IMG/VR virus record: IMGVR_UViG_3300044993_000139
Coordinates: 1 to 33,804 of that record
Length of the DNA stretch: 33,804 bases
Source: a virus
Direction: 5' to 3' (one strand)
Shown: positions 11,261 through 28,576 of the stretch, in pieces
Numbering within the stretch: position 1 is the first letter of the stretch
Layout of the letters: every line of letters starts with the position of its first letter
Program-made: the position numbers and the translations under genes
Notes under the pieces: generated by a model
The model's input: the letters and a program-made list of their open reading frames with translations, nothing else
Databases searched by the model: none
What the model was told of the DNA's origin: nothing

Positions 11261-11281
11261 CATCGGGCCGCGGGCCACATC
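11261..11281 (-). promoter_or_regulatory. shared late-promoter motif, copy before tail chaperones
   Basis: On the minus strand this reads GATGTGGCCCGCGGCCCG followed by ATG. The first 18 bases are identical to the copy before the endolysin (26317), and the 12-base core GGCCCGCGGCCC is also found before the protease (16643-16654). It lies just downstream of a terminator (11291-11318) and 77 bases before the tail chaperone start, the place of the P promoter in Mu. It is presumably bound by the late activator, perhaps Mor. Confidence 0.65.
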
Positions 11282-11290
11282 ACAAGCGAC

Positions 11291-11318
11291 AAAAAGGGCC
11301 GGCGCAACGGCCGGCCCT
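11291..11318 (-). terminator. rho-independent terminator after tail tube gene
   Basis: On the minus strand the 9-base stem AGGGCCGGC pairs across a 6-base loop and is followed by TTTTT. It lies 28 bases after the tail tube stop and would limit read-through, giving high tail tube expression relative to the downstream tail genes. Confidence 0.85.
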
Positions 11319-11346
11319 CAAGTCCCTGACAGAGCGGATCAGGGGA

Positions 11347-12297
11347 TCAGGGGATGCGGTAAAGCTTGAGCGAGTAGTCGTCGTGGCCGGTGGACGGCAG
11401 GATGCGGCCGGTGACCTGGATGCCCTTGTACTCGTCGATTACCTCGCTCTGCATGCCGGTGATCTGCACGACCGGGGCCCCGAACTCGAGGTTGGCGGTG
11501 CCCGTCGCCATCGCGATGTCCAGCAGCATCGGCACCTTGGCTTCGGTGCGGATCATCTGGGCGAAGTTGGTGACCGCCAGCGTCGTCCGCATGACACGCA
11601 TCGTGAAGGTCGCCGCGTGCTTGTCGTTTTTCGATCGTTGCACGGCCATGTTGCGGGTCATCGTGTTGTTGCGGCCGGTCGAGACCACCAGCCCGTAGCA
11701 GTGCATCTCGTTGCCGTCGAGGTCCAGCTGCGACGCCTCGGTCGTGATCGACAGCGGGTCCTGGATCGCGTCGTAGGTCGGCGTGGCCATCGCGGCTTCG
11801 ACGAGGTCGGTGGATGCGTCGAAAGGCGCCATGATGGTGAAGCCGGCCGACGGCACCTCGCCCATGTTGAAGCGGAACTCGGTGATGACCCCGCGTGCGT
11901 CCTTGACGAGATAGCGATAGTCGCCGTCGTCGTGTCGGAGCGTCAGGAACGGCAGCTGGCTGCGGTTGCTGGTCGGCGTGTAGGTGTAGTCGTCGGTGTT
12001 GGCGGTCTCCACGTGCCCGCAGGCGCGCAGGATGCGGCCGATTCGCGGGGCAGCCCACGGGTCGGTGCCGACCAGATAGATGTTGCCGGCCGTGGTCAGC
12101 ATGTGGTTGATCGTGCGAACCGAACGCGAGCCCGAGAACGGCCGATCACGCCGGATCTCGATCTCCTCGTTGCCCGGGTTGCTGGTCAGCTCGTAGCAGT
12201 CGATGGCATCCGCCGCGACGTTGAGGGTCTCGGCCGTGCCTTCGGTGGCCTGGATTTTGGCGTAGAGCGTGTTGAGCTCTTGGTCCTGATAGATCAC
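11347..12297 (-). CDS. major tail tube protein
   Basis: The 316-residue product begins at GTG 12297, overlapping the upstream stop by three bases (GTGA). It starts MIYQDQELNTLYAKIQATEG and contains DAIDCYELTSNPGNEEIEIR, a form typical of tail tube proteins of Mu-like siphoviruses. The second half (about 190-310) is beta-rich, ending RILPSTGHDDYSLKLYRIP. It is placed between the tail terminator-like gene and the tail chaperones, the usual position of the tube gene, and is followed directly by a strong terminator. Confidence 0.85.
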   Translation of the reverse strand: MIYQDQELNTLYAKIQATEGTAETLNVAADAIDCYELTSNPGNEEIEIRRDRPFSGSRSVRTINHMLTTAGNIYLVGTDPWAAPRIGRILRACGHVETANTDDYTYTPTSNRSQLPFLTLRHDDGDYRYLVKDARGVITEFRFNMGEVPSAGFTIMAPFDASTDLVEAAMATPTYDAIQDPLSITTEASQLDLDGNEMHCYGLVVSTGRNNTMTRNMAVQRSKNDKHAATFTMRVMRTTLAVTNFAQMIRTEAKVPMLLDIAMATGTANLEFGAPVVQITGMQSEVIDEYKGIQVTGRILPSTGHDDYSLKLYRIP

Positions 12298-12740
12298 GGG
12301 ATGGTCCTCGTGGCGGTGGCGGTAAAGCGGGACGTGAACTGCTGCTCGTACGCGACCACGCCCTCGAAAACCTGGCGGAGCGTGCCGGCGCCGAGCTGCA
12401 GCGGGCGTTCGAGGGACGGGGGACGCGCCCCAAACAGCGTGTCGATCACGGCCTGGTTGGCGGCGCGGGCGGTCTGATGCAGACCTGGCCCAGGGCGTGC
12501 GCTGCCGACGACGACCGCGACGCTGATGCGCACTTGGATGACCTGCCGGAGCCGGGCCGTGCTGCTGTTGTCGGCGACGGGGTCGACGCCGCACTGGAAG
12601 ACAAAAGCGGCCGGCAGATCGGCGGCGTTGGGGTGCTGCAGGTAGCGCGCGAGGTCCTCGATCTCCTGCACTTTGCGCCAGCCGCCCGCATCCTTGAGCT
12701 GCTCGATGCACCACAGGATCGCATCGCCGACCGCGTCCAT
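12294..12740 (-). CDS. tail terminator-like protein (Mu gp37-like)
   Basis: The 148-residue protein (MDAVGDAILWCIEQLKDAGG start) fits the Mu gp37 / DUF1834-type small proteins that cap the tail tube or join tail to head. Visible features are an N-terminal helix with a QEIEDLARYLQH segment, then a beta-rich middle (VIQVRISVAVVVGSARPG) and C-terminal strands. It is coupled to the tail tube (GTGA) and directly adjoins the connector gene, sharing one base (12740). Confidence 0.7.
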   Translation of the reverse strand: MDAVGDAILWCIEQLKDAGGWRKVQEIEDLARYLQHPNAADLPAAFVFQCGVDPVADNSSTARLRQVIQVRISVAVVVGSARPGPGLHQTARAANQAVIDTLFGARPPSLERPLQLGAGTLRQVFEGVVAYEQQFTSRFTATATRTIP

Positions 12741-13264
12741 CAGCGCAGGCCCCCTGCGAAGTAATCGAGGTACTCGGCGGCGGAGCGCTGCAGCAGCGGC
12801 GGCGCCTCGTCGATCATGACCTCCGCGGCCTGGGCAGGCTGCGGCAGGCCGAGTGTCATCCGGCCTGCACCAATCTCGCGGAGCGTGGCCATCGCGGCGC
12901 GGTAGTCGCGGATGATCGGGCTGTCCTCGCTGCTGGTCAGCAAGTGGGTGTGCAGGATGTAGCGGACGATGGCGCGGGCGAGCCGGGTCAGCACCAGCGG
13001 CGTCGTGGGCAGCGGCAGCGAGTACCGGCTGCCGAGGCTCGCGTCGATGGTGGCGCTGGCCTCGGCGATCGCGCTGTGCACGCGCTCCAGCGCCGCATCC
13101 GCGGCCGGCAGGTCCGACGAGTCGAATCCGGAGCGGTCAGCGCCGGCCAGCGTCGCGGTCATGAGGTCGGTGGCGACGATCGGCAGTTCGGCGGGTGTCG
13201 CGACTTGCGCGATTTCGGCGGCACCGGGTCGCTCGATCAGGTCCGCGTCGCTGATGTAGCTCAC
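12740..13264 (-). CDS. head-tail connector (Mu gp36 / DUF1320-like)
   Basis: The 174-residue protein starts MSYISDADLIERPGAAEIAQ, a recognisable DUF1320 opening. The helical signature ASATIDASLGSRYSLPLP, followed by LVLTRLARAIVRYILHTH, is that of this connector family, which sits below the portal. The C-terminal 40 residues are Ala/Pro-rich and variable. The ATG overlaps the upstream stop (ATGA). Confidence 0.85.
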   Translation of the reverse strand: MSYISDADLIERPGAAEIAQVATPAELPIVATDLMTATLAGADRSGFDSSDLPAADAALERVHSAIAEASATIDASLGSRYSLPLPTTPLVLTRLARAIVRYILHTHLLTSSEDSPIIRDYRAAMATLREIGAGRMTLGLPQPAQAAEVMIDEAPPLLQRSAAEYLDYFAGGLR

Positions 13265-13593
13265 GACGCGCTCCGACGGCGTCGTGACGCCGGGGCCGGC
13301 GCTGCGGCGGGCTCGGCGGCCGGCGGCTCGGCAGGCACCGCGGTGGACGCGGGATCAGCGGCAGCCGGGGCGACAGATTCGGGAGCGGCGGCAGGCACCA
13401 CCGGATCAGCTGCAGCAGGAGTCGCATCGGCGGGCTCGGCGGTGGGAGCGGGAGCGATCAGGCGGGCGTCGATCAGGGGCTGCGCTTGCTCGGGCGTCAG
13501 CATGATCCCGACACCGGGCCGGTAGACGACATTGCCGCGCTTGAAGGGCTCGATCACCCAGTAAAGGATTTTCGGTTGCTGCATGGTTTCCAT
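13261..13593 (-). CDS. small protein with Ala/Pro-rich tail
   Basis: The 110-residue protein has a folded-looking first 45 residues (ILYWVIEPFKRGNVVYRPGV, GIMLTPEQAQPLIDARLI) and then about 60 residues made almost only of Ala, Pro, Glu and Val, ending in RRRRSAS. A comparable short protein lies between capsid and connector genes in many Mu-like phages, and its function is not known. AGAGG lies 7 bases before the ATG. The downstream gene overlaps by four bases. Confidence 0.75.
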   Translation of the reverse strand: METMQQPKILYWVIEPFKRGNVVYRPGVGIMLTPEQAQPLIDARLIAPAPTAEPADATPAAADPVVPAAAPESVAPAAADPASTAVPAEPPAAEPAAAPAPASRRRRSAS

Positions 13594-13675
13594 CGTGCAC
13601 CTCTGGTTGGGGATGCCGGGTTGTGCAGGAGCGCCCGGCGCGCCCCCAGAACCGCCTGCACGCGGCCGGCGAGGA

Positions 13676-14029
13676 TCAGCTCAGGTCGGTTTTCTTCATT
13701 TCGATGGTCGCGCCGCCCTGCAGCTGCGGCGGACCGAACTGCAGCTCGATGGTCTGCGCCTCGGCGAGCACGACCTCGACGGCGCCGGTGGCGGTGATGG
13801 TGCGGACGCCCTCGCCCAGGTCGGCGTCGACACTGACGCTGATCTGCGCGACGCCCGGACCGACAGCGGTGACGGTGGCGCGAGTCGGGTCGGCCGGGTC
13901 AGGCAGGACGGTGGCGACGGTGTCGTCGCTGGACGCCCAGACCGGGGCGCCGTCGATCGGGGCCGGGCGGCCCAGCGCAGTGATAGTGCTGATGGCAAGG
14001 ACAGAGAACTGCTCGGTGGTCAAACGCAT
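13676..14029 (-). CDS. Ig-like (BIG2-type) head-associated protein
   Basis: The 117-residue protein starts MRLTTEQFSVLAISTITALG. Residues about 20-85 resemble a bacterial Ig-like group 2 domain: APVWASSDDTVATVLPDP, then RATVTAVGPGVAQISVSVDA. Such domains often decorate capsids. The frame is open up to an ATG at 14191, 4 bases after the capsid stop, which would add 54 residues (MAAATRAVLLWLLAQAHQIV). The shorter start is preferred because the extra part is Pro/Arg-rich like a shadow frame, but the longer form is not excluded. With the short start, 14030-14194 is non-coding and I see no clear signal in it. Confidence 0.65.
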   Translation of the reverse strand: MRLTTEQFSVLAISTITALGRPAPIDGAPVWASSDDTVATVLPDPADPTRATVTAVGPGVAQISVSVDADLGEGVRTITATGAVEVVLAEAQTIELQFGPPQLQGGATIEMKKTDLS

Positions 14030-14194
14030 GGTGTAGATCTCGCAGTGGATGACGGGCGTGAGCCCAGGGGTACCGATCCGCCACCGGATCCGAGGAGCCG
14101 GCGGCGGGGCTGGGGTGCAGGGGAGGCGCCGGACGATCTGGTGGGCCTGCGCGAGCAGCCAGAGCAGTACGGCGCGTGTAGCGGCGGCCATGCG

Positions 14195-15139
14195 TCAGGC
14201 GAACGCGGCGCCCGCGTCCTTGAACAGGTAGCCGGCGAGGATCCCCGACAGAACCGGCGTCTGGTGGAAGGCCACCGGATAGATCCAGCTGGACGCGTTG
14301 CGGTCCTGGTAGGGCTCCTCGACGACCGGGTGGCCGTCGATGTAATAGGTGTAGCCGTAGCCCGGCTCCTCGGCGTTGGCGGAGGCGTCGCCATTGCCCT
14401 GCGGGACGTAGGCCAGCACCGCGTCGTCGCCCCAGATCGGCGTCAGCGTGTCATCGACGCCGGTCGCCTGGATCGCGGCCGCCACGATGATCCGCGGCAC
14501 CTCGAAAATGGCCTGCAGTGTGTCCAGCGTCACCGTACGGGTGATGTTGGTGGCCACGCGGTTGATGATGTCCGGGTGGCGCTGCAGCGCGTAATAGCAG
14601 GACCGCGAGAGCACCAGCGTGTTGGGGTCCATGCCCGTACTGGTCGCGACGGCATCACGGCCGGCCGCGATGTCCGCGATCGGGTCCGAGTCCGGCGAGG
14701 TCCACCGCGCCGTGCTGGTGAGCGTGACCTTGTGGGTGCTCGGGTAGTTGGCCGCATTGGTCGCCAGCGCCGCAGCGTCGATCTCATGCGTCAGCAGCAC
14801 GCTGTTGAGCGCGAGGCTGATGGCCCGCTGGCCCAGGTCGATGCCCGGGACCTGCGCGGCGTCGCGCATGTGCTCGAAGGGCACGACGCCCTCGATGTCG
14901 CTGGGGATGATGCTGTAGGGCTTGCCGGTGTAGCCGAAGCGGATACGGCGCTTGTTGGCGCCAGGGGCGCGCTTGGTGACGTAGGCACGGAACGACTCTT
15001 TGCCGAACTCCAGCACCTGGCCGCCGTACTGCATGACGGGCGCGAGCGGGAACAGCTCCCGCGCGACCAGCTGACGCTGACGGTAGCCGCGGGCGAACTG
15101 CGAGAGGATCGGATTGACGACCCGGATAGCGAGGGACAT
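14195..15139 (-). CDS. major capsid protein
   Basis: The 314-residue protein (MSLAIRVVNPILSQFARGYR start) has the size, position and sequence style of the major head protein of Mu-like siphoviruses. It follows protease and cement genes. Recognisable parts are RQRQLVARELFPLAPVMQYG, then a conserved middle with DVDPNTLV-like wording (TGMDPNTLVLSRSCYYALQR) and a C-terminal SGILAGYLFKDA. HK97 fold is expected from the family. It lies 10 bases after the cement gene. Confidence 0.85.
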   Translation of the reverse strand: MSLAIRVVNPILSQFARGYRQRQLVARELFPLAPVMQYGGQVLEFGKESFRAYVTKRAPGANKRRIRFGYTGKPYSIIPSDIEGVVPFEHMRDAAQVPGIDLGQRAISLALNSVLLTHEIDAAALATNAANYPSTHKVTLTSTARWTSPDSDPIADIAAGRDAVATSTGMDPNTLVLSRSCYYALQRHPDIINRVATNITRTVTLDTLQAIFEVPRIIVAAAIQATGVDDTLTPIWGDDAVLAYVPQGNGDASANAEEPGYGYTYYIDGHPVVEEPYQDRNASSWIYPVAFHQTPVLSGILAGYLFKDAGAAFA

Positions 15140-15149
15140 TGCGGTTACC

Positions 15150-15482
15150 TCAGTTGGGGAGCAGCAGGACTTCGATACGCTGACCGGCCACGGTGGCGGC
15201 CTGCAGCGCGCGACCGACGGCGACGCCGGCAGAGCGATTGATCGCGCGGCCCTGGGCGTCGGTCTCGACCAGGCCGCCGGCGGTGACGGCAGCGCCGGCC
15301 GCGACGACTGCGGTGCCGATGCGCACCACCGGGATCACGTCACCGGACACGCCGGCCTCCGCGGACACGCCGGCGGAGGCGACACCCGCCCCGCACTCGG
15401 CGCCGGCGTAGGTCACGAATCGCTCAGTGCGCACCGTGGCGGAGGCAGTGAGCGGCAAGGTGAGGATGGGGATGCTCTGCAT
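15150..15482 (-). CDS. capsid cement / decoration protein (DUF2190-like)
   Basis: The 110-residue protein (MQSIPILTLPLTASATVRTE start) shows the DUF2190 pattern: alternating small residues and strands, with the segment DAQGRAINRSAGVAVGRALQ typical of the family's end. Related proteins stabilise the head shell. It lies between the protease/scaffold and major capsid genes, with gaps of 3 and 10 bases, as in related phages. Confidence 0.75.
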   Translation of the reverse strand: MQSIPILTLPLTASATVRTERFVTYAGAECGAGVASAGVSAEAGVSGDVIPVVRIGTAVVAAGAAVTAGGLVETDAQGRAINRSAGVAVGRALQAATVAGQRIEVLLLPN

Positions 15483-15485
15483 GTC

Positions 15486-16604
15486 TTAGCGCTCCAGCTG
15501 CTTTGCAGCGTCGATGAGAGAGAGGTGCGGGTTGGTGCGCCGCAGCTGTTCGGCGGCGGCGTAGAGCTGCATCGATGCGGGGTCAACCGCGTATCCCGGC
15601 GGCGCCGCGAAGCTGACGTCCTCGAGGACGCCGGGCTCGGGATCGGACACAGCGCCGAGTGCGGGCAGGCCGCCGCCGGCGAGCTGGCGGACCAGCTGGC
15701 GCGGGTCGGCACCGTCGCCGGCCGCGAACTCCGCGGTGCTGCGCAGGCTCTTGAGGAGCTGCAGGGTGGCGTCGCGCTTGGCGGGCAGCAGTTCGCCGGA
15801 CGCGATAAGCGAATCCGCGAAGGCGACGTCCTCACGATCGGCTAGCGCGGCCTCACGGGCAGCGACGGCGGCTTCGCGGGCCTGGACGGCGCGCAGCTCG
15901 GGAGTGATTTCGGGGAGGGCACCTTCGGGCGGCCCCGCGAATCGGGTCTCCAGCACCGCGGGCACCACGTCGGGCTCGCGATATCTGGCGGCCTCCGCGA
16001 TGACATCGATCATCCAGGTTGGCATCAGCCGATCAGCGACCTCGCTGCCGCGGTTGGCGATGGCGTCCTCGCGCAGTCTGCGCAGCATATCTGAGAGCGT
16101 GCCGAGCACCCACCAAGGGGCGCCGGGCAGCTCCGCGAACTCGACCGTGAGGATCTCCTCGCCGTCGGCGAGCGCGACGTCCCGCAGGCCTGGCACGGCC
16201 GGCGCAGCAGCGCCGAGCCAGCCCACGTGCTTCGGGTACCAAATGCCGGGCTTGGGATTGGCGGTCGAGGCCGGCCCGTGGAAGGCCATGCTGCGCTTGC
16301 GGTAGCGGCCGGCTGCGACCTGGTCCGCGAACGCAGGGGCGACATCGCGATGCTCGCTCGCGACCAGCACATCGCCCCGCAGCTCGAGCTTGCCGACCCA
16401 GCCTTGGGCCGGATCGTCCAGCTGCGGGTGACCGATGACGTGCGGTGCCGGCGAGTGCGCCGGGTCGTAGGCGGCGACGGTGGCGGCGAGGTCGGCCACG
16501 GTGATCGTGACCTGCTGCCCGCGTGCGTCGGTATAGGTGCCCGCGCGAAACACCTCGGTGGGTGCCAGCGCGGGAGTCGTCTCGGGTGTGGGTTTGTCGC
16601 TCAT
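15486..16604 (-). CDS. head maturation protease with scaffold domain (Mu gpI-like)
   Basis: The 372-residue protein has a protease-like N-terminal half. Candidate catalytic residues are His59 in HVIGHPQLDD and Ser105 in RKRSMAF; these assignments come from family resemblance only. Residues about 235-260 form an Ala/Glu/Arg coiled coil (LRAVQAREAAVAAREAALAD), consistent with the scaffold part. In Mu this gene directly follows G; here G lies at the opposite end of the prophage on the other strand. It is the first gene after a copy of the late-promoter motif, with a 34-base leader, so it starts the head operon. Confidence 0.85.
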   Translation of the reverse strand: MSDKPTPETTPALAPTEVFRAGTYTDARGQQVTITVADLAATVAAYDPAHSPAPHVIGHPQLDDPAQGWVGKLELRGDVLVASEHRDVAPAFADQVAAGRYRKRSMAFHGPASTANPKPGIWYPKHVGWLGAAAPAVPGLRDVALADGEEILTVEFAELPGAPWWVLGTLSDMLRRLREDAIANRGSEVADRLMPTWMIDVIAEAARYREPDVVPAVLETRFAGPPEGALPEITPELRAVQAREAAVAAREAALADREDVAFADSLIASGELLPAKRDATLQLLKSLRSTAEFAAGDGADPRQLVRQLAGGGLPALGAVSDPEPGVLEDVSFAAPPGYAVDPASMQLYAAAEQLRRTNPHLSLIDAAKQLER

Positions 16605-16638
16605 GAGGAGCGACTTTCCGGGCTCGCGCGGGGCCGGT

Positions 16639-16659
16639 CAGTGGGCCGCGGGCCGCAAT
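16639..16659 (-). promoter_or_regulatory. shared late-promoter motif, copy before protease
   Basis: On the minus strand this reads ATTGCGGCCCGCGGCCCACTG (split: ATTGC, then the core GGCCCGCGGCCC, then ACTG). The core equals those at 11265-11276 and 26322-26333. Similarity to the endolysin copy continues downstream (CTG...CGGCCCC...GCGCG...GC). The distance to the start codon (34 bases) nearly equals that before the endolysin (32 bases). It corresponds in place to the Mu I promoter. Confidence 0.65.
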
Positions 16660-16678
16660 GCCGATCTACCCGGCGTTT

Positions 16679-16695
16679 TAACGCGTGCTAACGCG
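16679..16695 (-). promoter_or_regulatory. direct repeat upstream of head promoter
   Basis: CGCGTTA occurs twice on the minus strand, its copies at 16679-16685 and 16689-16695 being 10 bases apart, one helical turn. It lies about 20 bases upstream of the late motif, where an activator could bind. The other two late motifs lack it. Confidence 0.4.
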
Positions 16696-16748
16696 GGTCT
16701 GTGCGATTTGATGGGGCTGGGGGCTCCACGGTAGCCCTGCGGGCCTCT

Positions 16749-16778
16749 GCGGGCGCGTAGGCGATCCTACGCGCCCGC
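16749..16778 (-). terminator. strong hairpin overlapping the Mor stop codon
   Basis: A perfect 13-base stem (GCGGGCGCGTAGG and its complement) encloses the loop CGAT. The Mor stop codon lies within it. There is no T tract on either strand, so intrinsic termination is uncertain. It marks the border between early and head operons and may protect or attenuate the early transcript. Confidence 0.6.
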
Positions 16779-17189
16779 CCCGAACAGGTCCGTCTGCGGG
16801 CGAGCATGGCGCTCCCTGACCCGCTTGATGATCTTGCGCACTGCGCGCTCGCCGACGCTGTACCGCTGGGCCAAGGCGGTGATGCTGACGCCGGCTGCGT
16901 GCTCCTTGTACAGCTCGAGGTCGCGCGCCGAAAGCCTGTAGTGATAGTCGGCCGGGAACAAAATTTGCTGGCCCGCCCACTCCTCGACCAACATCTGGAC
17001 GATCGCGCAGGCGACCTGCTCGGCCACGTCGACCGGGATGCCGTACTCGGTCAGCTCCGACACGACGCGATCGTCAATCTCTTGGTACAGCATGTGACGG
17101 CGGCGCCACTGGGGCACCGCCTTTAGGCTCTCATGCCGCTCGGGGATCTGCACACCCGCCTTTTGCGCGGTGGTCAGTCGCTCGCTCAT
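16767..17189 (-). CDS. mor: Mor/C-family transcription activator
   Basis: The 140-residue protein (MSERLTTAQKAGVQIPERHE start) ends the early operon. Residues about 40-90 match the Mor dimerisation region (YGIPVDVAEQVACAIVQMLV, then GQQILFPADYHYRLSARDLE), followed by a helix-turn-helix at about 95-130 (GVSITALAQRYSVGERAVRK). Mu Mor activates the middle promoter and its relative C the late promoters. Here no second family member is seen, so this protein may control the three shared late motifs directly. The ATG overlaps the upstream stop (ATGA at 17186-17189); the longer open frame to 17582 is a shadow. Confidence 0.88.
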   Translation of the reverse strand: MSERLTTAQKAGVQIPERHESLKAVPQWRRRHMLYQEIDDRVVSELTEYGIPVDVAEQVACAIVQMLVEEWAGQQILFPADYHYRLSARDLELYKEHAAGVSITALAQRYSVGERAVRKIIKRVRERHARPQTDLFGAGA

Positions 17190-17899
17190 GCCGGCTGCTC
17201 CGTCCGCTCCGCCAGCCAGCCGCGCCAGTTGAGGACGGCGGCGTCGGCCGGGTCGAGCGTCGCCACAGCTTTGGCCGCGACAGCGAGGATCGAGGCGCGC
17301 TCCTCGCCGTCGTCGATCTGACGGCTCAGCATCTGCCGACACCACTGCAGATTCGCACGCGCCCGGTCGGGGCTGGTCTCGTTGACTGCGGGGCTGTTGC
17401 CGCTCCGGGTGACGGCCGTCAGCAGCCCGCCGATCTCCACGCCCTCGCCCGTGGAGCCGGTGCGACGCTGCGACTCGCGGGCCTTGAGCGCCGCCTCGGC
17501 GCTGCTGACCTGCGCCCGCTGGGCGTTGGTCATCACGACCTCCAGCAGATAGCCGTTGGACTGCAGGGGCAGCCTGGCCCACTTGCGGTCCGCAAGTTCA
17601 TGCATCGCGTCGGCCCACAGCTCCACACTCGCGTCCATCGTCACCCCATCGCGCCTTACGACGCCGTCGCGCATCATCGGCAGCAGCTCGGCAAGGATAC
17701 GTAGACCGCGGCTCCAGCTCGTCGCGCGGCCCGGCGCGCGGAACAGCTGCAAGTACCGCAGGGCGGGCTTTCCGACGCCGGCCGGCAGCTCCGCGATCAG
17801 CGCGACAAATTGGCGGGCGTCGGTGCCGTCCACGAGCGCCGCCAGCTCGTGGACGCTGTTGCACGAGGGGCAGACCACGCGCATCAGATTTTTGCTCAC
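17186..17899 (-). CDS. early protein with N-terminal Cys pair, unknown function
   Basis: The 237-residue protein starts MSKNLMRVVCPSCNSVHELA; the CPSC pair suggests half of a zinc ribbon, but no second Cys pair follows. The rest is mainly helical, with SWSRGLRILAELLPMMRDGV and a C-terminal RANLQWCRQMLSRQIDDGEE segment. It overlaps GemA and Mor by four bases on each side. Position in the early operon suggests a replication or host-control role, but I do not recognise the family. Confidence 0.75.
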   Translation of the reverse strand: MSKNLMRVVCPSCNSVHELAALVDGTDARQFVALIAELPAGVGKPALRYLQLFRAPGRATSWSRGLRILAELLPMMRDGVVRRDGVTMDASVELWADAMHELADRKWARLPLQSNGYLLEVVMTNAQRAQVSSAEAALKARESQRRTGSTGEGVEIGGLLTAVTRSGNSPAVNETSPDRARANLQWCRQMLSRQIDDGEERASILAVAAKAVATLDPADAAVLNWRGWLAERTEQPA

Positions 17900-19017: not shown

Positions 19018-19565
19018 GACGCACCTCCGTCGATCTCCGCCCGAGGCCCGAGCAGCGCCCGGACGGCGTCCTCGGGGTCCAGCGGCAGGGTCACGACGAC
19101 GCGGGTCTCGCCCTCGACGCGGACACCGCCGATGCGGGCCAGCTGGAAGTCGTCGAGGAGCTTGACGGCGGCGAGGCTGACCTCGCGGCGGGCGGGTGCG
19201 AGCATCGACGCAGACTCCGGCAGCTCCCGGTCGATGCGATTGATGAGCGCGATGCCGGTGTCCTCCAGCATCAGTTTCGGCGGCAGACCCTGCAGGCCGA
19301 CCTTGACGCCGTGATAGATGCGGGTGCGCGGCCGGTCGAAAAGGTCGCGGTGCTGCTCGACCAGATCCGCAACGGCTTTGCGGCTGGCGCGATGCTGCAC
19401 CAGGGCGGCGCGGATGCGCGGCAGGGCGCGGGCGATGCTCGGCTCGATCGCGGCGCGGAGGTCGGTGATTGCGCCGGACAGGTCTTCGGCGGCCTCGGCC
19501 GCCCGCTTGCAGGCGGCCTCGATGTCGGCGAGGGCGGTCGTGGTCTGGATGGCTGCGTTGCTCAT
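19014..19565 (-). CDS. putative Gam-like host-nuclease inhibitor
   Basis: The 183-residue protein starts MSNAAIQTTTALADIEAACK. Its first 90 residues are helical, coiled-coil-like. The C-terminal half has a spacing of residues reminiscent of Mu Gam: LPPKLMLEDTGIALINRIDR, then REVSLAAVKLLDDFQLARIG and GVRVEGETRVVVTLPLDPED. Gam binds linear DNA ends and shields them from host exonucleases. Its location shortly after the MuB-like gene supports this. Similarity is judged by eye and weak, so this could be an unrelated early protein. It starts 8 bases after the ATPase stop. Confidence 0.55.
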   Translation of the reverse strand: MSNAAIQTTTALADIEAACKRAAEAAEDLSGAITDLRAAIEPSIARALPRIRAALVQHRASRKAVADLVEQHRDLFDRPRTRIYHGVKVGLQGLPPKLMLEDTGIALINRIDRELPESASMLAPARREVSLAAVKLLDDFQLARIGGVRVEGETRVVVTLPLDPEDAVRALLGPRAEIDGGAS

Positions 19566-19573
19566 GTCGTATC

Positions 19574-20716
19574 TCAGCGAGTGGCGCGGACCATGTCCGC
19601 GGTGACTTTCGGCGCGCCGAGGTCGGCGGCCTGGTTGATCGCACGCGCCAGCACGTTGTGCACGGCCAGCGGGTACAGGTTGGACTGCGCCCGGCGGCTG
19701 GTGCCGGTGGGCGTGGTCAATCGGGTGGCGATGGCGTCGATTGCGGCGGGCTCGACGACCTCGGCCAGCGTCAGGCCGACGCGGGCGAATCGATGCGACA
19801 GATAGCCGGAGAGGTGCTGGTCCAGCGGGGCGAGGTGCACGACCTCGATGCGCTGCACCACCTCCCGGACCTCCGGGTTTTGCTCGCTGAGCTTGACGCC
19901 CAGCTCGGGCTGACCGATCAGGATGATGGCCAGCAGCGGGCGCATGCCGTCCTTGAGCTCGAGGAATCGCTTGAGGTGCTTGAGCGTCGCGATCGGCATC
20001 GCGTGCGCCTCCTCGATCATCAGCACGTGCCGATGCCCCGCGCGGGACGATTCGCGCAGCGCGTTGTGCAGCTGGCGAAAGCGCGCCTCCGGGCTGCTGT
20101 GCGTGCGGGTCAGCGGGGCGACGACCGCCATGATCGACTCGGCGATGTGCACGGCCTTGAGGCACTTCCCGCGGCTGTCGCTCTCCTCCATCGCCAGCAC
20201 ATAGGGCTGGATCACCAGCGCCGGGTGCTCCTCGCGCTGGATGCGGTCGATCAGCTCCTCGCGCAAGGTCGACTTGCCGGCGCCGGACTCGCCGACGACG
20301 GCGAGCATGCCGCCGTGCTTGACCTTGTCGAGCATCGACTCGCGGACGTAGCGGATGTCGGGGCTGCCGGTGTAGACGTCGGCGATGTCGCGCGGCTCCC
20401 CGAAGGGGTCGCGGGTGATGCGGAAATGGCGACGCGCGTCGGGCGTCAGCGTCTCGCGGCGTAGAAGCATGGTCAGATCCTCCTGGGTTGGGGGCGTTGC
20501 CGGTGATGCGGGTGAGGCGACGGGCGCGGTCCAGTCGTCGGTGATGCCGCGGGCGCGCAGGTACTCGGTGATCGGGCCGCGCACGTCACCGGCCGGCCAC
20601 ACGCCCTGGTTGGCTAAGCGGCTGACGGCGGTGCGGGAGCGGTCGAGGTGGGCGGCAATGTCGCTGAGCGCGACGCCGTGATGACGGCAGAGGTCACGCA
20701 GGCGCAGGGCGGTCAC
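19574..20716 (-). CDS. MuB-like AAA+ ATPase, target-DNA activator
   Basis: The 380-residue protein starts at GTG 20716, overlapping the transposase stop (GTGA). Residues 1-60 form a helix-turn-helix (RDLCRHHGVALSDIAAHLDR, SRTAVSRLANQG), as in MuB. The ATPase has Walker A GESGAGKS at 142-149 and Walker B VLMIEE at 231-236, followed by AH. The family binds target DNA in an ATP-dependent way, delivers it to the transposase and stimulates strand transfer. A Pro/Ala linker (about 64-80) separates the parts. An internal ATG at residue 83 could give a form without the helix-turn-helix. Confidence 0.92.
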   Translation of the reverse strand: MTALRLRDLCRHHGVALSDIAAHLDRSRTAVSRLANQGVWPAGDVRGPITEYLRARGITDDWTAPVASPASPATPPTQEDLTMLLRRETLTPDARRHFRITRDPFGEPRDIADVYTGSPDIRYVRESMLDKVKHGGMLAVVGESGAGKSTLREELIDRIQREEHPALVIQPYVLAMEESDSRGKCLKAVHIAESIMAVVAPLTRTHSSPEARFRQLHNALRESSRAGHRHVLMIEEAHAMPIATLKHLKRFLELKDGMRPLLAIILIGQPELGVKLSEQNPEVREVVQRIEVVHLAPLDQHLSGYLSHRFARVGLTLAEVVEPAAIDAIATRLTTPTGTSRRAQSNLYPLAVHNVLARAINQAADLGAPKVTADMVRATR

Positions 20717-22497
20717 AGGCCACCCCCGACCGCGCGCAGGACCGGGCGCAGCAGCTGCAGCACTGCGGGCGGCAGCTCGTCCTCGGTCAGCCCCTCCGGC
20801 CACCGCTGCTGCGCCTGGGCGTACAGCTCCGGCGTCCACTGCGCGCCGCGCTCGATGACCAGGCGGCGCAGCTCGCGGATCGTGTCCAGCTGGCTCAGCC
20901 GCTGCGCGACGTACCGGCGGCGCTCGGTCGGCACCACCGGCGTGGGCTCGACCACCGTCGGCGCGACGACGTCGCTGGCTTGCCCGGCCCGCGGCAGCGC
21001 CACCACCGGCGCTGTCCACGACTGGGTCGGGTCGATGCTGCCGCCGAAGGGCACGCGCTTGGCCTTGCGGGCAGCCTTCGCCGCGGCGTCGGTGTCGACC
21101 TCCATCGCGAGGCGCTCGATCTCCTTGCGCGCGGCGTCCACCGGAGTCTCCGGCGCCGCCTTGTATTCGGTGCCGATCTGCGCGGCGTCCGACCGGAACC
21201 CCCACTCATCGTGCTGGATGAGCGGCGCGATGTAGTGAGAGGGCTTGCCGTCCTCGCCGTCGATCAGCACGCGGACCGAGCCGTCGAGGTCGAAAGGGTT
21301 GATGACGACGTCGACCTTGGCGCCCTGCACCAGCGTCGGCAGACCGCGCAGGTCGTACTTCTTGCCGCGGAAATTGATGGTGTGGTCGCGGACGGTGCAG
21401 GCCTTCGGCACCGACTGCGGCAGCTGCTGCAGCACGGCCACCGGCGGCGCGAGGGTCAGCTGCTCCGAGGTGATGCGCAGCCACGCATCGCGGCGGGTCA
21501 TGCCGTGGCGGCCGTGCTCCTGGGTGGCTGCGTACCAGGTCGCCCAGCGCACGGCGTGACGGTTGATTTCCTCGAGCGTCTTCACCGGGGACCGCAGCTT
21601 GAGCGGCGCCTCGAAGCTGCGCTCGATGATGTTGTGGGCGCCCTCGACCTGCCCCTTGACGCGCGCCTTGCCGGTCGCGTTCTTGATCGGGTTGATACCG
21701 AGCGCGCGGAGGAAGGTCTGCATGGCGGTCGACCCGAGCACACCGCCGTCGGACATCACGTAGCGCGGCACGCCGTACATCACAGAGTCCGGCCGCTGCG
21801 TCATGGCGAAGATCAGCGCGCTGATGGCGTTCGCCGCCGACTCCGCGCCGAGGCAGTACCACAGCGCGATCGCGCCGGAGCAGTGATCGGTGATCGCGTA
21901 GCGCCAAAGCCGGCGGTCGGCGATCTTGGCCAGGTGCTGCGGCTTGCCCTCGTAGTGCAGGGTTTTGTCGAGCTGCTGCGTGCCGGCGTCCGCGAGGTAG
22001 AACTGCGCAGACAGCGACGCGTCGATCTGCCAGCACCAGTTCGGGTGCGGGCTGCTCAGCGACGTCGCCGGCGTCTCCGCGGCCAGCTGGCCGGGGTGGC
22101 AGTGGTAGTGCCGCATCGCGCGGCTGATTGCCGACAGCGACAGCGGGCGCATCTCGCCGGTGCCCTCGTCGACGCTGCCGGCGAGGATCCGGCCATCCTC
22201 TCGCAGGATGCGCACCGCATCCTCCAGCGTCAGCGCACCGGTGCCGGTCTGCCGGCGGCTGGCCTCGATCAGCGCGGCGATCAGGATCGCCTCCGACTCC
22301 AGCAGCTCGGTCTGACCGGCGTCGGCGCGGCGCCGCCGGCCGGTGTCCGCAAGCTGGTGCTCACGGAGCTGACGATAGGCCGTCTGCACCGATACGCCCA
22401 GCGTCGCAGCGAGGTCCGCGACGATGCGCGTGCGCTCCCCGCGACCGGCAGCAGCCAGCGCGCGGGCGGCATCGACGATGGCGGGGAGCCGGGACAT
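20713..22497 (-). CDS. MuA-like DDE transposase
   Basis: The 594-residue protein starts MSRLPAIVDAARALAAAGRG; the ATG overlaps the upstream stop by one base. Residues about 20-50 form a helix-turn-helix (ADLAATLGVSVQTAYRQLRE). The integrase core has the acidic triad Asp159 (WCWQIDAS), Asp250 (YVMSDGG) and Glu285 (KGQVEGAHN), with D to E spacing of 35. A Mu-type C-terminal beta-barrel follows at about 360-420 (TINFRGKKYDLRGLPTLVQG). The C-terminus (about 500-594) is Pro/Arg-rich and helical, as expected for contact with the ATPase. It catalyses integration and replicative transposition. Confidence 0.94.
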   Translation of the reverse strand: MSRLPAIVDAARALAAAGRGERTRIVADLAATLGVSVQTAYRQLREHQLADTGRRRRADAGQTELLESEAILIAALIEASRRQTGTGALTLEDAVRILREDGRILAGSVDEGTGEMRPLSLSAISRAMRHYHCHPGQLAAETPATSLSSPHPNWCWQIDASLSAQFYLADAGTQQLDKTLHYEGKPQHLAKIADRRLWRYAITDHCSGAIALWYCLGAESAANAISALIFAMTQRPDSVMYGVPRYVMSDGGVLGSTAMQTFLRALGINPIKNATGKARVKGQVEGAHNIIERSFEAPLKLRSPVKTLEEINRHAVRWATWYAATQEHGRHGMTRRDAWLRITSEQLTLAPPVAVLQQLPQSVPKACTVRDHTINFRGKKYDLRGLPTLVQGAKVDVVINPFDLDGSVRVLIDGEDGKPSHYIAPLIQHDEWGFRSDAAQIGTEYKAAPETPVDAARKEIERLAMEVDTDAAAKAARKAKRVPFGGSIDPTQSWTAPVVALPRAGQASDVVAPTVVEPTPVVPTERRRYVAQRLSQLDTIRELRRLVIERGAQWTPELYAQAQQRWPEGLTEDELPPAVLQLLRPVLRAVGGGL

Positions 22498-23390
22498 CAG
22501 CGCACCTCGCTCGCGGGATCGTCGCGCAGCCAATCCGGCGTCGGGTCAGCGCTCACCGCAGCGGGCACGCCGAGCTCATCGCGCAGGCACCGCAGATCGC
22601 GCTCGATCTCCGCAAACACGCCGGCGAGGTAGACGGTCTGATCGATGCCCGCGGCCACGCCAGCCTCGACCAGGACCGCCGCGCGAGTGCGCAGCGATGA
22701 GACCTCCTCGCCCTCGCGTGAGGGGTGAGCAATCACCCGGCTGCGGATTTCGATGGCTACCACCGACACGTCCTGCCGCAGCTGCTCGATCTGCTCGTCG
22801 GGCTTGGCGCTCTGCCACTGCCGGCGGAGCTTGCGGACTTCGGCCTGCAGCCTTTCGTTGCTCTCGCTCTTGTTCCGCGCAAGCTCGCGACTCGCTTCCA
22901 GGTCGAGCTGGAGATCGCGAATCTCCTTGTCACGCTCTGCGCGCCAGGCACGCAGCTCGGCGCGTGTCATCCGTGCAATGTCGTCGACGTCCTTGCCGTC
23001 GACCTTGCCGCCGGTGTCCAGCTCCTTGAGTTCCGAATCAGAAAGCGACAGCAGCTCCGCGACCTTCGACTTCGGCAGCTTCTGCTGGATGAGACCTGCC
23101 GGGTCGACGGTCTCGGCAGCGCGCATCATTTGCCAGGCCGTCGTGCGAGGGATACCGGCGTCTGCGAGGAGCTGCTGCCACTCCCCGCCGGTCTCTCCGA
23201 GATGCGCCTTGGCGACCAGCAGCAGACTACCGGTCCGCAGGAACGATTGAATCGCAGACTCGAATGAGTCGCGGATCAGCGCGGTGTAGTGATCGATGTT
23301 CCACGGCAGACCGGCGGCGTACTTGGCTACCATTTCGCGCTGGTGCTTGAGCAGCTCGGCTTCGCCGCTCACGATGAGTTCTGTGCTCAT
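22497..23390 (-). CDS. DUF3102-like coiled-coil early protein
   Basis: The 297-residue protein starts MSTELIVSGEAELLKHQREM. Residues about 40-95 resemble DUF3102 (FLRTGSLLLVAKAHLGETGG, EWQQLLADAGIPRTTAWQMM), a module found in phage and plasmid replication or partition regions. A long charged coiled coil follows at about 140-205 (RAERDKEIRDLQLDLEASRE). It precedes the transposase, with a one-base overlap, in the early operon. Its role is unknown; DNA binding is plausible. Confidence 0.75.
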   Translation of the reverse strand: MSTELIVSGEAELLKHQREMVAKYAAGLPWNIDHYTALIRDSFESAIQSFLRTGSLLLVAKAHLGETGGEWQQLLADAGIPRTTAWQMMRAAETVDPAGLIQQKLPKSKVAELLSLSDSELKELDTGGKVDGKDVDDIARMTRAELRAWRAERDKEIRDLQLDLEASRELARNKSESNERLQAEVRKLRRQWQSAKPDEQIEQLRQDVSVVAIEIRSRVIAHPSREGEEVSSLRTRAAVLVEAGVAAGIDQTVYLAGVFAEIERDLRCLRDELGVPAAVSADPTPDWLRDDPASEVR

Positions 23391-23399
23391 GGGTTCGCC

Positions 23400-23720
23400 T
23401 CAGTGGTGCCGGCCAGTGCCGGCCAAGTAATTGGTGTTGAACTCGTCGACGCGTTGCTGCAGCCGGACGTATTCCGCTTGGGTCGCGACGGCGATGCGCG
23501 TCATTCGCGAGGAGAGGCGCCAGCTGCCTTCGGCGCCGGGCACTTGCTGCACGAGCCCGAGCGCTTCGAGGTCTTGCAGGTCGCGCAGCGTGGTGCTCGG
23601 CAGCTGCTCAAGCTGTTTTGACAGGGCATTGAGTCGACGGCCGGTGGCCGCGTGCCCGGCTAGCGCCTCGATCAGCCGCCATGCGCGCTCCACGGGCTTT
23701 TTCGCGCTGCGCTCGGTCAT
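23400..23720 (-). CDS. winged-helix (IclR-like) DNA-binding early protein
   Basis: The 106-residue protein reads like an IclR-type winged helix: ERAWRLIEALAGHAATGRRL, NALSKQLEQLPSTTLRDLQD, LEALGLVQQVPGAEGSWRLS, followed by a C-terminal helix (AEYVRLQQRVDEFNTNYLAG). Comparable small helix-turn-helix proteins occur in early regions of Mu-like phages. The ATG overlaps the upstream stop (ATGA). It may tune early transcription, and it lies right beside the three long palindromes, which are candidate binding sites. Confidence 0.8.
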   Translation of the reverse strand: MTERSAKKPVERAWRLIEALAGHAATGRRLNALSKQLEQLPSTTLRDLQDLEALGLVQQVPGAEGSWRLSSRMTRIAVATQAEYVRLQQRVDEFNTNYLAGTGRHH

Positions 23721-24196
23721 GACGTGACTCCAGCCGCGGACTGACGTTCCGCATGCGGAACGTGGGGACCAGCGGCAGACTGACGTTCCGCATGCGGAAC
23801 GTGGGGACCAGCGGCAGACTGACGTTCCGCATGCGGAACGTCAGTCGCCAGCCGAACTCGCCGACTGATCCACGACTCCGCTTCGCAGAGCGCCGTCTGC
23901 CAGCTGATCTCGGCTGCGGCATAGCGGTGCCACCACCGCTCCAAGCGCATGGACAGCTCAGGCCACTCGCTGTCAGGCAGGCCGCGGCGCTGTGCAGCAC
24001 GCTGCACAGCGGTCTCGTAGTCCAGGCGCTGGCGCTGCATCTCGCGCTCCCAGCGGGCCATCTCGGCGAGTTCGATTCGCGCGAGGTCTTGTCGGAGGAA
24101 GCGCAGGAGTGCCGGCACCCACATCGGGACGGTGGTGGCGAGGACGATGACCAGCAAAATTAAGATGCTGGCCCAGATCATGAGCATGTCGTTCAC
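23717..24196 (-). CDS. membrane protein ending in three palindrome-encoded repeats
   Basis: The 159-residue protein starts at GTG 24196, which overlaps the upstream stop (GTGA) and has GGAAG upstream. Residues about 5-27 form a transmembrane segment (MIWASILILLVIVLATTVPM). Residues 35-120 are helical and charged, with RWEREMQRQRLDYETAVQRA. The last 40 residues consist of three copies of a 13-residue unit, VPHAERQSAAGPH, generated by the tandem DNA repeat beneath. Role unknown; a membrane-bound early protein such as a superinfection or host-control factor is possible. Confidence 0.7.
   Translation of the reverse strand: MNDMLMIWASILILLVIVLATTVPMWVPALLRFLRQDLARIELAEMARWEREMQRQRLDYETAVQRAAQRRGLPDSEWPELSMRLERWWHRYAAAEISWQTALCEAESWISRRVRLATDVPHAERQSAAGPHVPHAERQSAAGPHVPHAERQSAAGVTS
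23744..23846. repeat. three tandem copies of a long perfect palindrome
   Basis: The 20-base palindrome ACGTTCCGCATGCGGAACGT occurs at 23744-23763, 23783-23802 and 23822-23841, with a period of 39 bases. The third copy extends to a perfect 30-base palindrome (23817-23846). The intervening sequence (GGGGACCAGCGGCAGACTG) is the same both times. The period is a multiple of three, so the reading frame stays open. Candidate operator or enhancer cluster, about 1 kb from the early promoter. Confidence 0.9.
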
Positions 24197-24534
24197 TTCG
24201 GCTTCCTTTCGTAGACGGTCCCAATCAGCGGCAGCGCACAAGAGCGCTCGATCTTTTCGATGCAGTGCCGGGCAATCCCAGCCGCGTCACTGATCTCCCT
24301 GAGCAGCTTTGCTCGCTCGGCGCACTCTGTTGCCGTGCTCAGCAAGGGCAGAAACCCGCTCACCAATCGCGTGGATTCGCGCACCCCCTTCAGCTCCTCA
24401 CGCACCTCGCGGATTGCAATCTTCACGTCGCGAGAAAAGACAGAATTAGGATCGCTCTTGGCTTCCGTCCCGCTCGCTCGCCAGACCTGGCGAAGCGCGC
24501 GAGTCGGAAGCGGAGGCAGTTTTTCCTCGCTCAT
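24193..24534 (-). CDS. small early protein of unknown function
   Basis: The 113-residue protein starts MSEEKLPPLPTRALRQVWRA; the ATG overlaps the upstream stop (ATGA), and the longer frame to 24849 crosses the promoter and cannot be the gene. It is mainly helical: SRDVKIAIREVREELKGVRE, TECAERAKLLREISDAAGIA. I do not recognise it. Confidence 0.65.
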   Translation of the reverse strand: MSEEKLPPLPTRALRQVWRASGTEAKSDPNSVFSRDVKIAIREVREELKGVRESTRLVSGFLPLLSTATECAERAKLLREISDAAGIARHCIEKIERSCALPLIGTVYERKPK

Positions 24535-24761
24535 GCGGCCTCCCGCACGGGCAGGCCGTTGAGGCCAGCGGCTTGCAGCAGCTGCTCGCGCACCTGAGTG
24601 CCCTTCGGCCCATTCCAGCCGCCGAGCAGGGCGGACCGCGCGTGCTGCAGTCGGATGTTGTGGTTGCGGCAGTAAGCGCCGAGGGTGGTGCCCTGCATCA
24701 CGAATCCAGCGCGCACAGATCGCACCAGATCGGGTCCCAGGTTGTGCATTACTTTCTTCAC
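24531..24761 (-). CDS. first early gene, small HTH protein (BcepMu gp16 / Ner-like)
   Basis: The 76-residue protein starts at GTG with AGAGGA 7 bases upstream. It resembles the small gp16-type proteins of BcepMu-like phages: VRAGFVMQGTTLGAYCRNHN, IRLQHARSALLGGWNGPKGT, a short helix-turn-helix. In Mu the first early gene, ner, codes for a small DNA-binding protein that turns down the repressor and early promoters. The position here, right behind the early promoter, suggests the same duty. Overlaps the next gene by four bases. Confidence 0.7.
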   Translation of the reverse strand: MKKVMHNLGPDLVRSVRAGFVMQGTTLGAYCRNHNIRLQHARSALLGGWNGPKGTQVREQLLQAAGLNGLPVREAA

Positions 24762-24817
24762 GGTTGCATCCTCTTGTTATTCGGTGTCGGCTCCGAGGTA
24801 CGTACCCGACGACCGGA

Positions 24818-24846
24818 AGGATATGCCAGAACTCTGGCATTGTCAA
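24818..24846 (-). promoter_or_regulatory. early (lytic) promoter
   Basis: On the minus strand there is a -35 TTGACA (24841-24846), exactly 17 bases, then -10 TATCCT (24818-24823). It faces the early operon, whose first start codon is at 24761. A perfect operator palindrome fills the spacer, so repressor binding would block RNA polymerase. A second palindrome, GGTACGTACC, lies at 24797-24806, just past the expected transcription start. Confidence 0.8.
24823..24840. promoter_or_regulatory. repressor operator palindrome
   Basis: ATGCCAGA-AC-TCTGGCAT is a perfect 8+2+8 inverted repeat between the early -35 and -10. A half-site-like ACCAGAGG follows at 24849-24856, overlapping the repressor ribosome-binding site (AGAGGA), which suggests autoregulation. 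Confidence 0.75.
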
Positions 24847-24863
24847 CACCAGAGGACCAAATC

Positions 24864-25289
24864 ATGGGCATCAATCAGAGGATCAAAGAGGAGCGGCGCC
24901 GGCTTGGCTGGACCGTGCTGGAGATGGCCGAGCACGCAGGCGTCAGCAAGAGCACCATCGTCAACTGGCAAAACGGCACTTCGAACCCCCAGATCGAGGC
25001 GCTTTCGCTTCTTGGCGAACGAGGAATTGACCTGTTCTTCGTGCTGACGGGCCAGCGCTCAGCAGTGATCCCTGGCGCCTCCGAAGACCAGCGATCTCAG
25101 ATCACGAGCCTTATCGACAGCTACCTTTGCCTCGACGACGTCGATCAGGAATTCTTGCTCAACACGGCGACCGGGCTGGTCGCAAAAGCGGTCAAGCGCG
25201 GCACCGCAAAGCTCGTCCGCAAGGTCGCGCCAGCCCCGGGCGGAGGCGCAGAATCTGCACTCCCAACATCGGATGAGGTGCAGTCATGA
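24864..25289 (+). CDS. phage repressor (Xre-type HTH)
   Basis: The 141-residue protein starts MGINQRIKEERRRLGWTVLE, with AGAGGA 7 bases before the ATG. A classic helix-turn-helix lies at about residues 8-60 (MAEHAGVSKSTIVNWQNGTS, NPQIEALSLLGERGIDLFF). The C-terminal part (SLIDSYLCLDDVDQEFLLNT) is short and helical and lacks the LexA/S24 Ser-Lys protease, so RecA-driven self-cleavage is not expected. It is divergent from the early operon across an 18-bp operator. Its location in mid-genome, not next to the left terminus as in Mu, is unusual. Confidence 0.85.
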   Translation: MGINQRIKEERRRLGWTVLEMAEHAGVSKSTIVNWQNGTSNPQIEALSLLGERGIDLFFVLTGQRSAVIPGASEDQRSQITSLIDSYLCLDDVDQEFLLNTATGLVAKAVKRGTAKLVRKVAPAPGGGAESALPTSDEVQS

Positions 25290-25582
25290 GCGGGTGGTGG
25301 TTCGTTTTCGTGGTGGTCGCCGTGCTCGTCGCCGGCGCGTGGCAGCAGCAGTGGATCATGTCGGAGGGCAAGGCCCTTGCCGAAAAGTTCGGCGCCCTCG
25401 GCAATCTCATCGGACGCACCGAGGCCGACATCGTCGCCGCCGTCGGCCCGCCGACCTCGCGCAGCGCCACCGTCGGCGGCCAGCTGCTGCAGTGGCAACG
25501 CACCGGCTACCACATCGCCCTGATCTTCGACGACCACGGCCAGTGCGGCGGCATCACCCACGAGCACCTCCACCAGGGCTAA
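25286..25582 (+). CDS. small membrane-anchored protein, SmpA-like
   Basis: The 98-residue protein overlaps the repressor stop (ATGA), so it is probably made in the lysogen. Residues 4-19 form a membrane anchor (WWFVFVVVAVLVAGAW). The rest resembles a small SmpA/BLIP-like fold (LIGRTEADIVAAVGPPTSRS, QLLQWQRTGYHIALIFDDHG) that would lie in the periplasm. Coupling to the repressor makes a superinfection-exclusion or lysogenic-conversion role plausible, but this is inference. Confidence 0.7.
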   Translation: MSGWWFVFVVVAVLVAGAWQQQWIMSEGKALAEKFGALGNLIGRTEADIVAAVGPPTSRSATVGGQLLQWQRTGYHIALIFDDHGQCGGITHEHLHQG

Positions 25583-25702
25583 CCTGACCAAATCCTAAAC
25601 AATTCTGGGCGCCATCCATTCGTCACTTGTCACCGTCGCAAGTAACGGGCAATCTACATCCACCGCAGCCAACCGGCTCGGGCAATCCCAGGAGATGCAG
25701 AC
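25583..25702 (+). promoter_or_regulatory. non-coding gap, possible weak promoter
   Basis: This gap holds TTGTCA at 25627-25632 and, 17 bases on, CAATCT at 25650-25655, a weak -35/-10 pair. An inverted repeat ACTTG-N8-CAAGT overlaps it. If active, it would transcribe the two accessory genes that follow. AGGAG lies 8 bases before the next ATG. Confidence 0.3.
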
Positions 25703-25924
25703 ATGAGCCACACCTACACCGCCAAGTACGCCCACAATAACTCCGATGTGCCAGGCCGCATTGAGCTGGCCGCCACAACCGAAGCAGCTGCCATCGCTGA
25801 GGCCGACGCCTTTGTCGAGCAAGGCTACGACGGCACCTGGATCAATGTGTCCCTCGAGGGCGGCGCGTACGCAGCGGTCAATCGCAACGGCCGCGCGGTC
25901 GGCGAGATCACGAGGTACGCATGA
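25703..25924 (+). CDS. 73-residue accessory protein of unknown function
   Basis: The product starts MSHTYTAKYAHNNSDVPGRI and looks like a compact alpha/beta domain: strand, helix (TTEAAAIAEADAFVEQGYDG), strands (TWINVSLEGGAYAAVNRNGR). There is a good ribosome-binding site. No family is recognised. It forms a pair with the following ribbon-helix-helix gene through an ATGA overlap, downstream of the repressor and upstream of a terminator. Confidence 0.65.
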   Translation: MSHTYTAKYAHNNSDVPGRIELAATTEAAAIAEADAFVEQGYDGTWINVSLEGGAYAAVNRNGRAVGEITRYA

Positions 25925-26250
25925 GCGGCGCCGCTCGCGCTGCACGGTACCGGGCAAAGGGGAGGACCATCACGGTCCTCCTCGACCCCGAGACCTACCA
26001 GCTGCTGCAGACCCTGCAGCAGCAGCTGGACCTGACGCAGGCCGAGGCCATCACCACCGCCCTGCGCGCGCTGTCGCCCCGCAAGGCGCAGCGCGAGGTG
26101 ACCGAAGCGGAGATCGACGCGCTGCTCGACCGCATCGAGGCACAGGCCGCCGCCGCCCGGCGGCTGCGGAGTGCAGATCCCGTGCCGGCGCCGGCAAAGA
26201 CCCGTGCAGGCCTGGGCACAGTCCGGTTGCGCTCCAAACCGCGAGCGTGA
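25921..26250 (+). CDS. ribbon-helix-helix DNA-binding protein
   Basis: The 109-residue protein starts MSGAARAARYRAKGRTITVL. The stretch GRTITVLLDPETYQLLQTLQ, then LDLTQAEAITTALRALSP, has the strand-helix-helix pattern of Arc/CopG-type regulators, followed by a charged helix and a basic tail. Together with the upstream gene it could be a cargo gene with its own regulator, in the manner of anti-CRISPR/Aca pairs or toxin-antitoxin pairs. Aca proteins are usually helix-turn-helix, so this is only an analogy. A terminator follows after 18 bases. Confidence 0.7.
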   Translation: MSGAARAARYRAKGRTITVLLDPETYQLLQTLQQQLDLTQAEAITTALRALSPRKAQREVTEAEIDALLDRIEAQAAAARRLRSADPVPAPAKTRAGLGTVRLRSKPRA

Positions 26251-26268
26251 TTGCGGCCCTCACCTGAC

Positions 26269-26298
26269 GCCCCGCCCCGCGCGGGGCTTTTTGTTTTT
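26269..26298 (+). terminator. rho-independent terminator after accessory genes
   Basis: The stem GCCCCGC / GCGGGGC with loop CCCGC is followed by TTTTTGTTTTT. It separates the repressor-side genes from the lysis operon, so lysis genes should stay off in the lysogen. Confidence 0.92.
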
Positions 26299-26316
26299 CG
26301 ATCGGGCGGACCGCCG

Positions 26317-26337
26317 GATGTGGCCCGCGGCCCGCTG
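26317..26337 (+). promoter_or_regulatory. shared late-promoter motif, copy before endolysin
   Basis: GATGTGGCCCGCGGCCCG then CTG lies directly after the terminator and 32 bases before the endolysin ATG, the place of the lys promoter in Mu. The 18-base start equals the copy before the tail chaperone on the other strand. No conventional -10 follows, as the region is almost purely G and C; an activator would be needed. Confidence 0.65.
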
Positions 26338-28574: not shown

Positions 28575-28576
28575 AC

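Follow-up and report, generated by a model that had tools for sequence, protein, structure and literature searches.

The window, by which we mean the whole 33,804-bp stretch of DNA that was analysed, is a complete IMG/VR record (positions 1-33,804) with a GC content of 70%, and represents a Mu-like (transposable) phage of a GC-rich host. Its early operon and the module extending from protease gene I to the tail are read leftward, and the genes from lysis to F are read rightward. The main genes are located as follows, where A, B and C denote the three candidate promoters described below:

4209-10136: tape measure, 1975 aa
10534-10908: PHROG 680 gene, following the first ORF of promoter A and followed by the tape measure
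10833..11183, minus strand: first ORF after promoter A, with no family match of its own
12740-13264: gp36
14195-15139: major capsid
15150-15482: scaffold
15486..16604, minus strand: head maturation protease (I), first gene after promoter B (PHROG 976, E 8.7e-78)
16767..17189, minus strand: Mor-family activator, about 140 aa (PF08765, E 2.5e-22; PHROG 532, late transcriptional activator)
20713-22533: transposase A
22497-23390: companion gene of transposase A
26370..26864, plus strand: endolysin (lysozyme), first gene after promoter C (PHROG 7, E 3.2e-48)
28538-29095: gp27
29092-30684: terminase
30671-32203: portal
32374-33159: F

In the Mu-like Stenotrophomonas phages vB_SmaS_Bhz63 and phiSHP3, which carry a transposase module related to that of the window, the late genes all run in a single direction, and by this comparison the late regulon of the window is split. 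Relative to these phages, the protease-tail module of the window is inverted and lies downstream of mor (15486-16604 and 26370-33159). Among the loci examined, only contig L016 shares this inverted placement, and the mor-I gene order of the window is also found there. Three tandem repeats of 39 bp, each with the palindrome ACGTTCCGCATGCGGAACGT, were observed close to where the leftward early operon begins (23730-23846); these repeats probably serve as operators, either of the repressor or of early genes. A palindrome of 26 bp without mismatches, CAAATGTGGCGACGTCGCCACATTTG, is located near the start of the tape measure gene (10150-10175), and an imperfect palindrome related to it lies within the portal gene (31856-31901).

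An exact scan of the window revealed three copies of the 12-mer GGCCCGCGGCCC, at 11265-11276 on the minus strand (copy A), 16643-16654 on the minus strand (copy B) and 26322-26333 on the plus strand (copy C), and no other, in agreement with an earlier note on this DNA that had reported no further copy. Dinucleotide-shuffled windows contained 0.13 copies on average, and none of 100 shuffles held three. As that note had also described, all three copies lie in intergenic gaps, copies A and C share 18 consecutive identical bases (GATGTGGCCCGCGGCCCG), and each copy is preceded by a terminator or hairpin. The hairpins ahead of A and C proved to be terminator-like with a T-run, and that ahead of B lacks one. 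The distances of 32 and 34 bases given in the note between the 12-mer and two of the start codons had to be corrected to 36 nt (copy C) and 38 nt (copy B), the 2-nt difference between them being retained. Copies A and C are identical at 44 of 52 bp without gaps (score 36), which makes them the top dispersed repeat of the window, where other dispersed repeats score at most 27 and the maxima in 20 shuffled windows, palindromes counted, were 22-33. Starting at the 12-mer, 26 of 42 columns are common to all three copies, and their consensus reads TG-Y-GGCCCGCGGCCC-N2-TG, followed by GA...T at positions 25-30 counted after the 12-mer. When a degenerate version of this consensus was searched with a tolerance of three mismatches, it matched the three sites only and nothing in shuffles, and a weight matrix built on the three copies found no fourth site in the window (next best score 6.7, against 36-41). 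The 12-mer singled out as the motif is real, but it is merely the centre of a putative promoter of about 51 bp. The elements of the three copies are listed below:

11235..11240, minus strand: copy A, -10 hexamer GAAGAT; predicted +1 at about 11228, leader of 45 nt, ATG at 11183
11259..11279, minus strand: copy A, operator TGTGGCCCGCGGCCCGATGCG, ahead of the operon with the tail chaperone and tape measure
11297-11312, minus strand: hairpin resembling a terminator, with T-run, preceding copy A
16613..16618, minus strand: copy B, -10 hexamer GAAAGT; predicted +1 at about 16606, I start codon at 16604 (+3)
16637..16657, minus strand: copy B, operator TGCGGCCCGCGGCCCACTGAC, upstream of protease gene I
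16749-16778, minus strand: hairpin lacking a T-run, preceding copy B at the mor end
26269-26287, plus strand: hairpin resembling a terminator, with T-run, preceding copy C
26319..26339, plus strand: copy C, operator TGTGGCCCGCGGCCCGCTGCG of the operon for lysis, terminase and portal, at predicted positions -51 to -31
26358..26363, plus strand: copy C, -10 hexamer GACGAT; predicted +1 at 26370, the A of the lysozyme ATG

Each copy consists of a 21-bp operator, 18 bp of spacer and a -10-like hexamer (GAAGAT in A, GAAAGT in B and GACGAT in C), with 33-34 bp from the operator centre to the -10 element. The -10 slot is occupied in all three copies, and there is no -35 box. A scan for consensus sigma-70 promoters around the sites found nothing, as would be expected of activator-dependent promoters. 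The operator core, GGCC-CGC-GGCC, forms a weak or partial palindrome, less symmetric than most of the operators compared, and its outer half-sites are more degenerate than those of the relatives. A CGCGCGCG-like run was observed in the spacer between operator and -10 hexamer of copies A-C and of Pseudomonas phage B3 (L241 11566 and 26818), and directly upstream of the operator instead in the Stenotrophomonas phages. The CGCGCG spacer stretch was considered as a binding site and rejected, since its position is not constant among phages.

Relatives were collected via protease searches; the capsid protein of the window retrieved no relatives from viral contigs, and the L016 protease retrieved L016 alone. 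The exact 12-mer was absent from the first 54 related loci, and the reading of this absence as non-conservation was dropped because the operators proved to be lineage-specific. Among 81 relatives, the block upstream of I, a short and mostly inverted repeat, often recurs in the same contig with a sequence that differs per lineage, its best repeat lying on the lysis side, about 8 kb upstream, or on the tail side, about 6 kb downstream. Operators like TTTTGAACCCGGACCAAAGAC characterise one broad group of relatives; that of G031 (TGCGGACCGCGGTCCCAATAC) is identical to copy B at 15 of 21 bases, and that of L016 (CTTTGGCCTCGGCCACAATAC) stands before I and once more, on the other strand, before the late operon that diverges from it. 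With operator 21-mers picked by eye from the repeated blocks, their register set by hand and related sequences thinned for redundancy by the 48 nt downstream only, A...T was present at offsets 19 and 23 after the operator in all but one of 39 non-redundant sites (38 of 39; 21 transposable phages), and at any other offset in at most five of the 39. This -10 spacing had already been seen beforehand in the window, G042, G019, G045, L016 and Bhz63, whereas for the second copies and the TTAAAAG group the operator was the sole criterion. The one exception, L121, belongs to these operator-defined sites and misses A...T by a single base. The two offsets correspond to A-11 and T-7 in the -10 element of sigma-70 promoters, which are the most important bases for opening the promoter. 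In the 39-site set the hexamer mostly begins with G or C and not with T, in keeping with a weak promoter that depends on an activator. In other lineages (RcapMu-like and others), nAnnnT often lies 34-35 bp from the dyad centre of a palindromic operator, with less strict spacing. Dyads are clear in many relatives, and in many I genes of the leaderless type discussed below the best dyad centre lies between -46 and -42 relative to the start codon.

The same arrangement of operator, 18 bp and nAnnnT was found in the Pseudomonas phages B3 and D3112. B3 has three sites, before the lysis genes, I and the tape measure (slots GATGAT, CACTCT and GAGGAT), and D3112 has two, before the lysis genes and I (CAGGAT and CACCAT). 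Their operators differ from those of the window (TTTTCGGTCCGCCGAAAAGCC; GTTGAACCCCTTCCCGTAACC), their late genes lie on a single strand, and the records seen bear no promoter marking at these sites. The ATG is at +1 or +2 in the I genes of both phages and in the lysis operon of D3112. The annotated start of B3 I (L241 19857) looks too early, the promoter-based prediction being 19887. In D3112 (L240), the lysis operon apparently opens with an unannotated ORF at 10749, and the I region (19793) is seemingly frameshifted between the predicted and the annotated starts. In Bhz63 and phiSHP3, one operator, CTGTGAACCCGTGCAAATGAC, different from that of the window, is common to the lysis and I promoters and the I start codon is at +1; two sites only were found, and the I-tail module is not inverted. 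The fit of B3 and D3112, together with the 38 sites above, supports the proposal of the earlier note that a shared late-promoter motif links the separated late operons.

Within 85 non-redundant I genes, 37 have A...T at -11/-7 or -12/-8 relative to the start codon, against an expectation of about 3.6 per offset, and 82% of the I genes with A...T at these offsets have C at -1. The same two offsets were occupied at 13 of 275 starts of major capsid, portal, terminase, F, gp27 and gp36 genes. Shine-Dalgarno-like words occur in a fraction of 0.19 of the leaderless-type I genes versus 0.50 of the others. The position of A...T in the I genes places the predicted +1 on or beside the start codon. In the window, the ATG of lysozyme lies at predicted position +1 and that of I at +3, so the mRNAs of both genes look leaderless or nearly so, and leaderless late mRNAs are probable for lysozyme and I. 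The earlier note, whose reading of the sites as promoters is supported, had overlooked how nearly the predicted +1 and the start codon coincide. No description of leaderless starts in transposable phages was found in the literature searched, which mostly did not include subscription papers.

One Mor-family gene was matched in the window record, which may be incomplete, and it adjoins promoter B. A longer ORF (16767-17582) was rejected as the extent of Mor, being over-extended: its first 130 residues overlap 17186-17899 in another frame, and the real start lies near 17189. The Mor of the window shares at most 39% identity with any Mor compared. Most phages with operators carry a recognisable Mor-family gene, usually one; a PF08765 search of the operator-bearing G005, G010 and G036 gave no significant Mor match, some homologues being highly divergent. 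Mor distance was correlated with operator distance (Mantel r 0.58, n=15 non-redundant phages). The correlation persisted when protease distance was controlled for (partial r 0.34, p 0.007), and that between protease and operator controlling for Mor was not significant (partial r 0.10, p 0.26), in tests that can be liberal and with strongly correlated Mor and protease distances (r 0.92). This covariation favours Mor as the binder, short of proof, and is in line with the Mor-like protein having been put forward as the likely activator.

The promoter anatomy, the fixed spacing, the placement at late operons and the covariation with Mor are established at the level of sequence. The fixed geometry of operator and -10 element, the fit of B3 and D3112, the spacing similar to that at Mu Pm and the Mor covariation argue that the three copies are very probably late promoters of the Mor/C type that would coordinate the split late regulon, the single Mor being their most likely activator. 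From these features we infer Mor binding, activator dependence and timing, as well as a +1 on or next to the lysozyme and I start codons. In the proposed mechanism, Mor, produced from the end of the early operon, would bind the operators (about 21 bp, -51 to -31) and turn on all three promoters, where host sigma-70 RNA polymerase would read a poor -10 element (GAnnnT) across an 18-bp spacer without a usable -35 box. Promoter C would then serve lysis-terminase-portal-F rightward, promoter B protease-capsid-tail leftward and promoter A chaperone-tape measure-tail leftward, so that a common activator would coordinate the two halves of the late regulon, which run in opposite directions.

It is improbable, though less so than the two readings that follow, that the promoters are real but their operators are bound by some phage or host regulator other than Mor. 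The three operator-bearing phages without a significant PF08765 match would suit such a regulator; however, operator sequence follows Mor and not the protease, the operator geometry of the window equals that of Mu Mor at Pm, and the one Mor-family gene of the window stands directly before promoter B. The conserved GGA/GA..T after the core might instead be a Shine-Dalgarno sequence or an RNA structural element and not a -10 box, given that copies B and C have a GGA-containing element 10-12 nt before the start codon. This appears very unlikely, because copy A keeps the same operator offset at more than 50 nt from its start codon and the lysis and tail sites of relatives with long leaders have the GA..T element at that offset as well, whereas several members (GACGATGGCCCC-ATG) have no Shine-Dalgarno sequence and such words are rarer in the leaderless-type I genes.

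Equally slight is the chance that module shuffling left the copies behind as a dispersed repeat or a recombination seam, with no regulatory role. The late modules of the window are indeed rearranged relative to Bhz63 and phiSHP3, with the repeats at module borders, yet only the operator and the two -10 bases are kept in register while the 18-bp spacer diverges, and unrearranged relatives have the same paired elements.

Beyond the window, Mor-activated late promoters of this kind may well represent one architecture across the transposable phages of Proteobacteria, with the operator diversifying along with Mor and with I (here also lysozyme) routinely leaderless, a generalisation that we regard as rather likely. 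If so, the late regulon of each lineage would be private. The layout would allow late promoters to be read from sequence in B3, D3112, the Stenotrophomonas phages and many prophages, and suggests corrected start codons for gene I; in the literature searched, no description of late promoters of transposable phages other than Mu was found. Moreover, the natural activator-operator pairs offer a route to how Mor recognises DNA, and leaderless translation of a strongly expressed late gene would be unusual.

TTAT-N6-ATAA, a pattern attributed to Mu C, proved to be absent ahead of lys, I and P in Mu, so the operators of Mu were not compared in sequence. In Mu, C activates the late promoters Plys, PI, PP and Pmom (PMC4461284, PMC4287176) from sites upstream of -35 (PMC4461284), and Mor activates the middle promoter Pm (PMC4461284, PMC4287176), where its dyad spans -51 to -36 with its centre at -43.5 (PMC4287176). 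The window resembles Mu in having a Mor/C-family activator, an operator upstream of and overlapping the -35 region, only partly dyad-like in the window, with its centre about 34 bp from the -10 element, no -35 box, and promoters before the lysis genes and protease I. It differs from Mu in its GC-rich operator, in late operons on both strands, in a predicted transcription start on or near the start codon at two of the three promoters, and in a single Mor-family gene, in a record that may be incomplete, in place of the Mor-then-C cascade. The placement at lys, I and P attributed to the three copies by analogy with Mu holds for lys and I; the third promoter is not the counterpart of that at P, as promoter A precedes the tail chaperone and tape-measure genes, whereas P of Mu comes after the tape measure.
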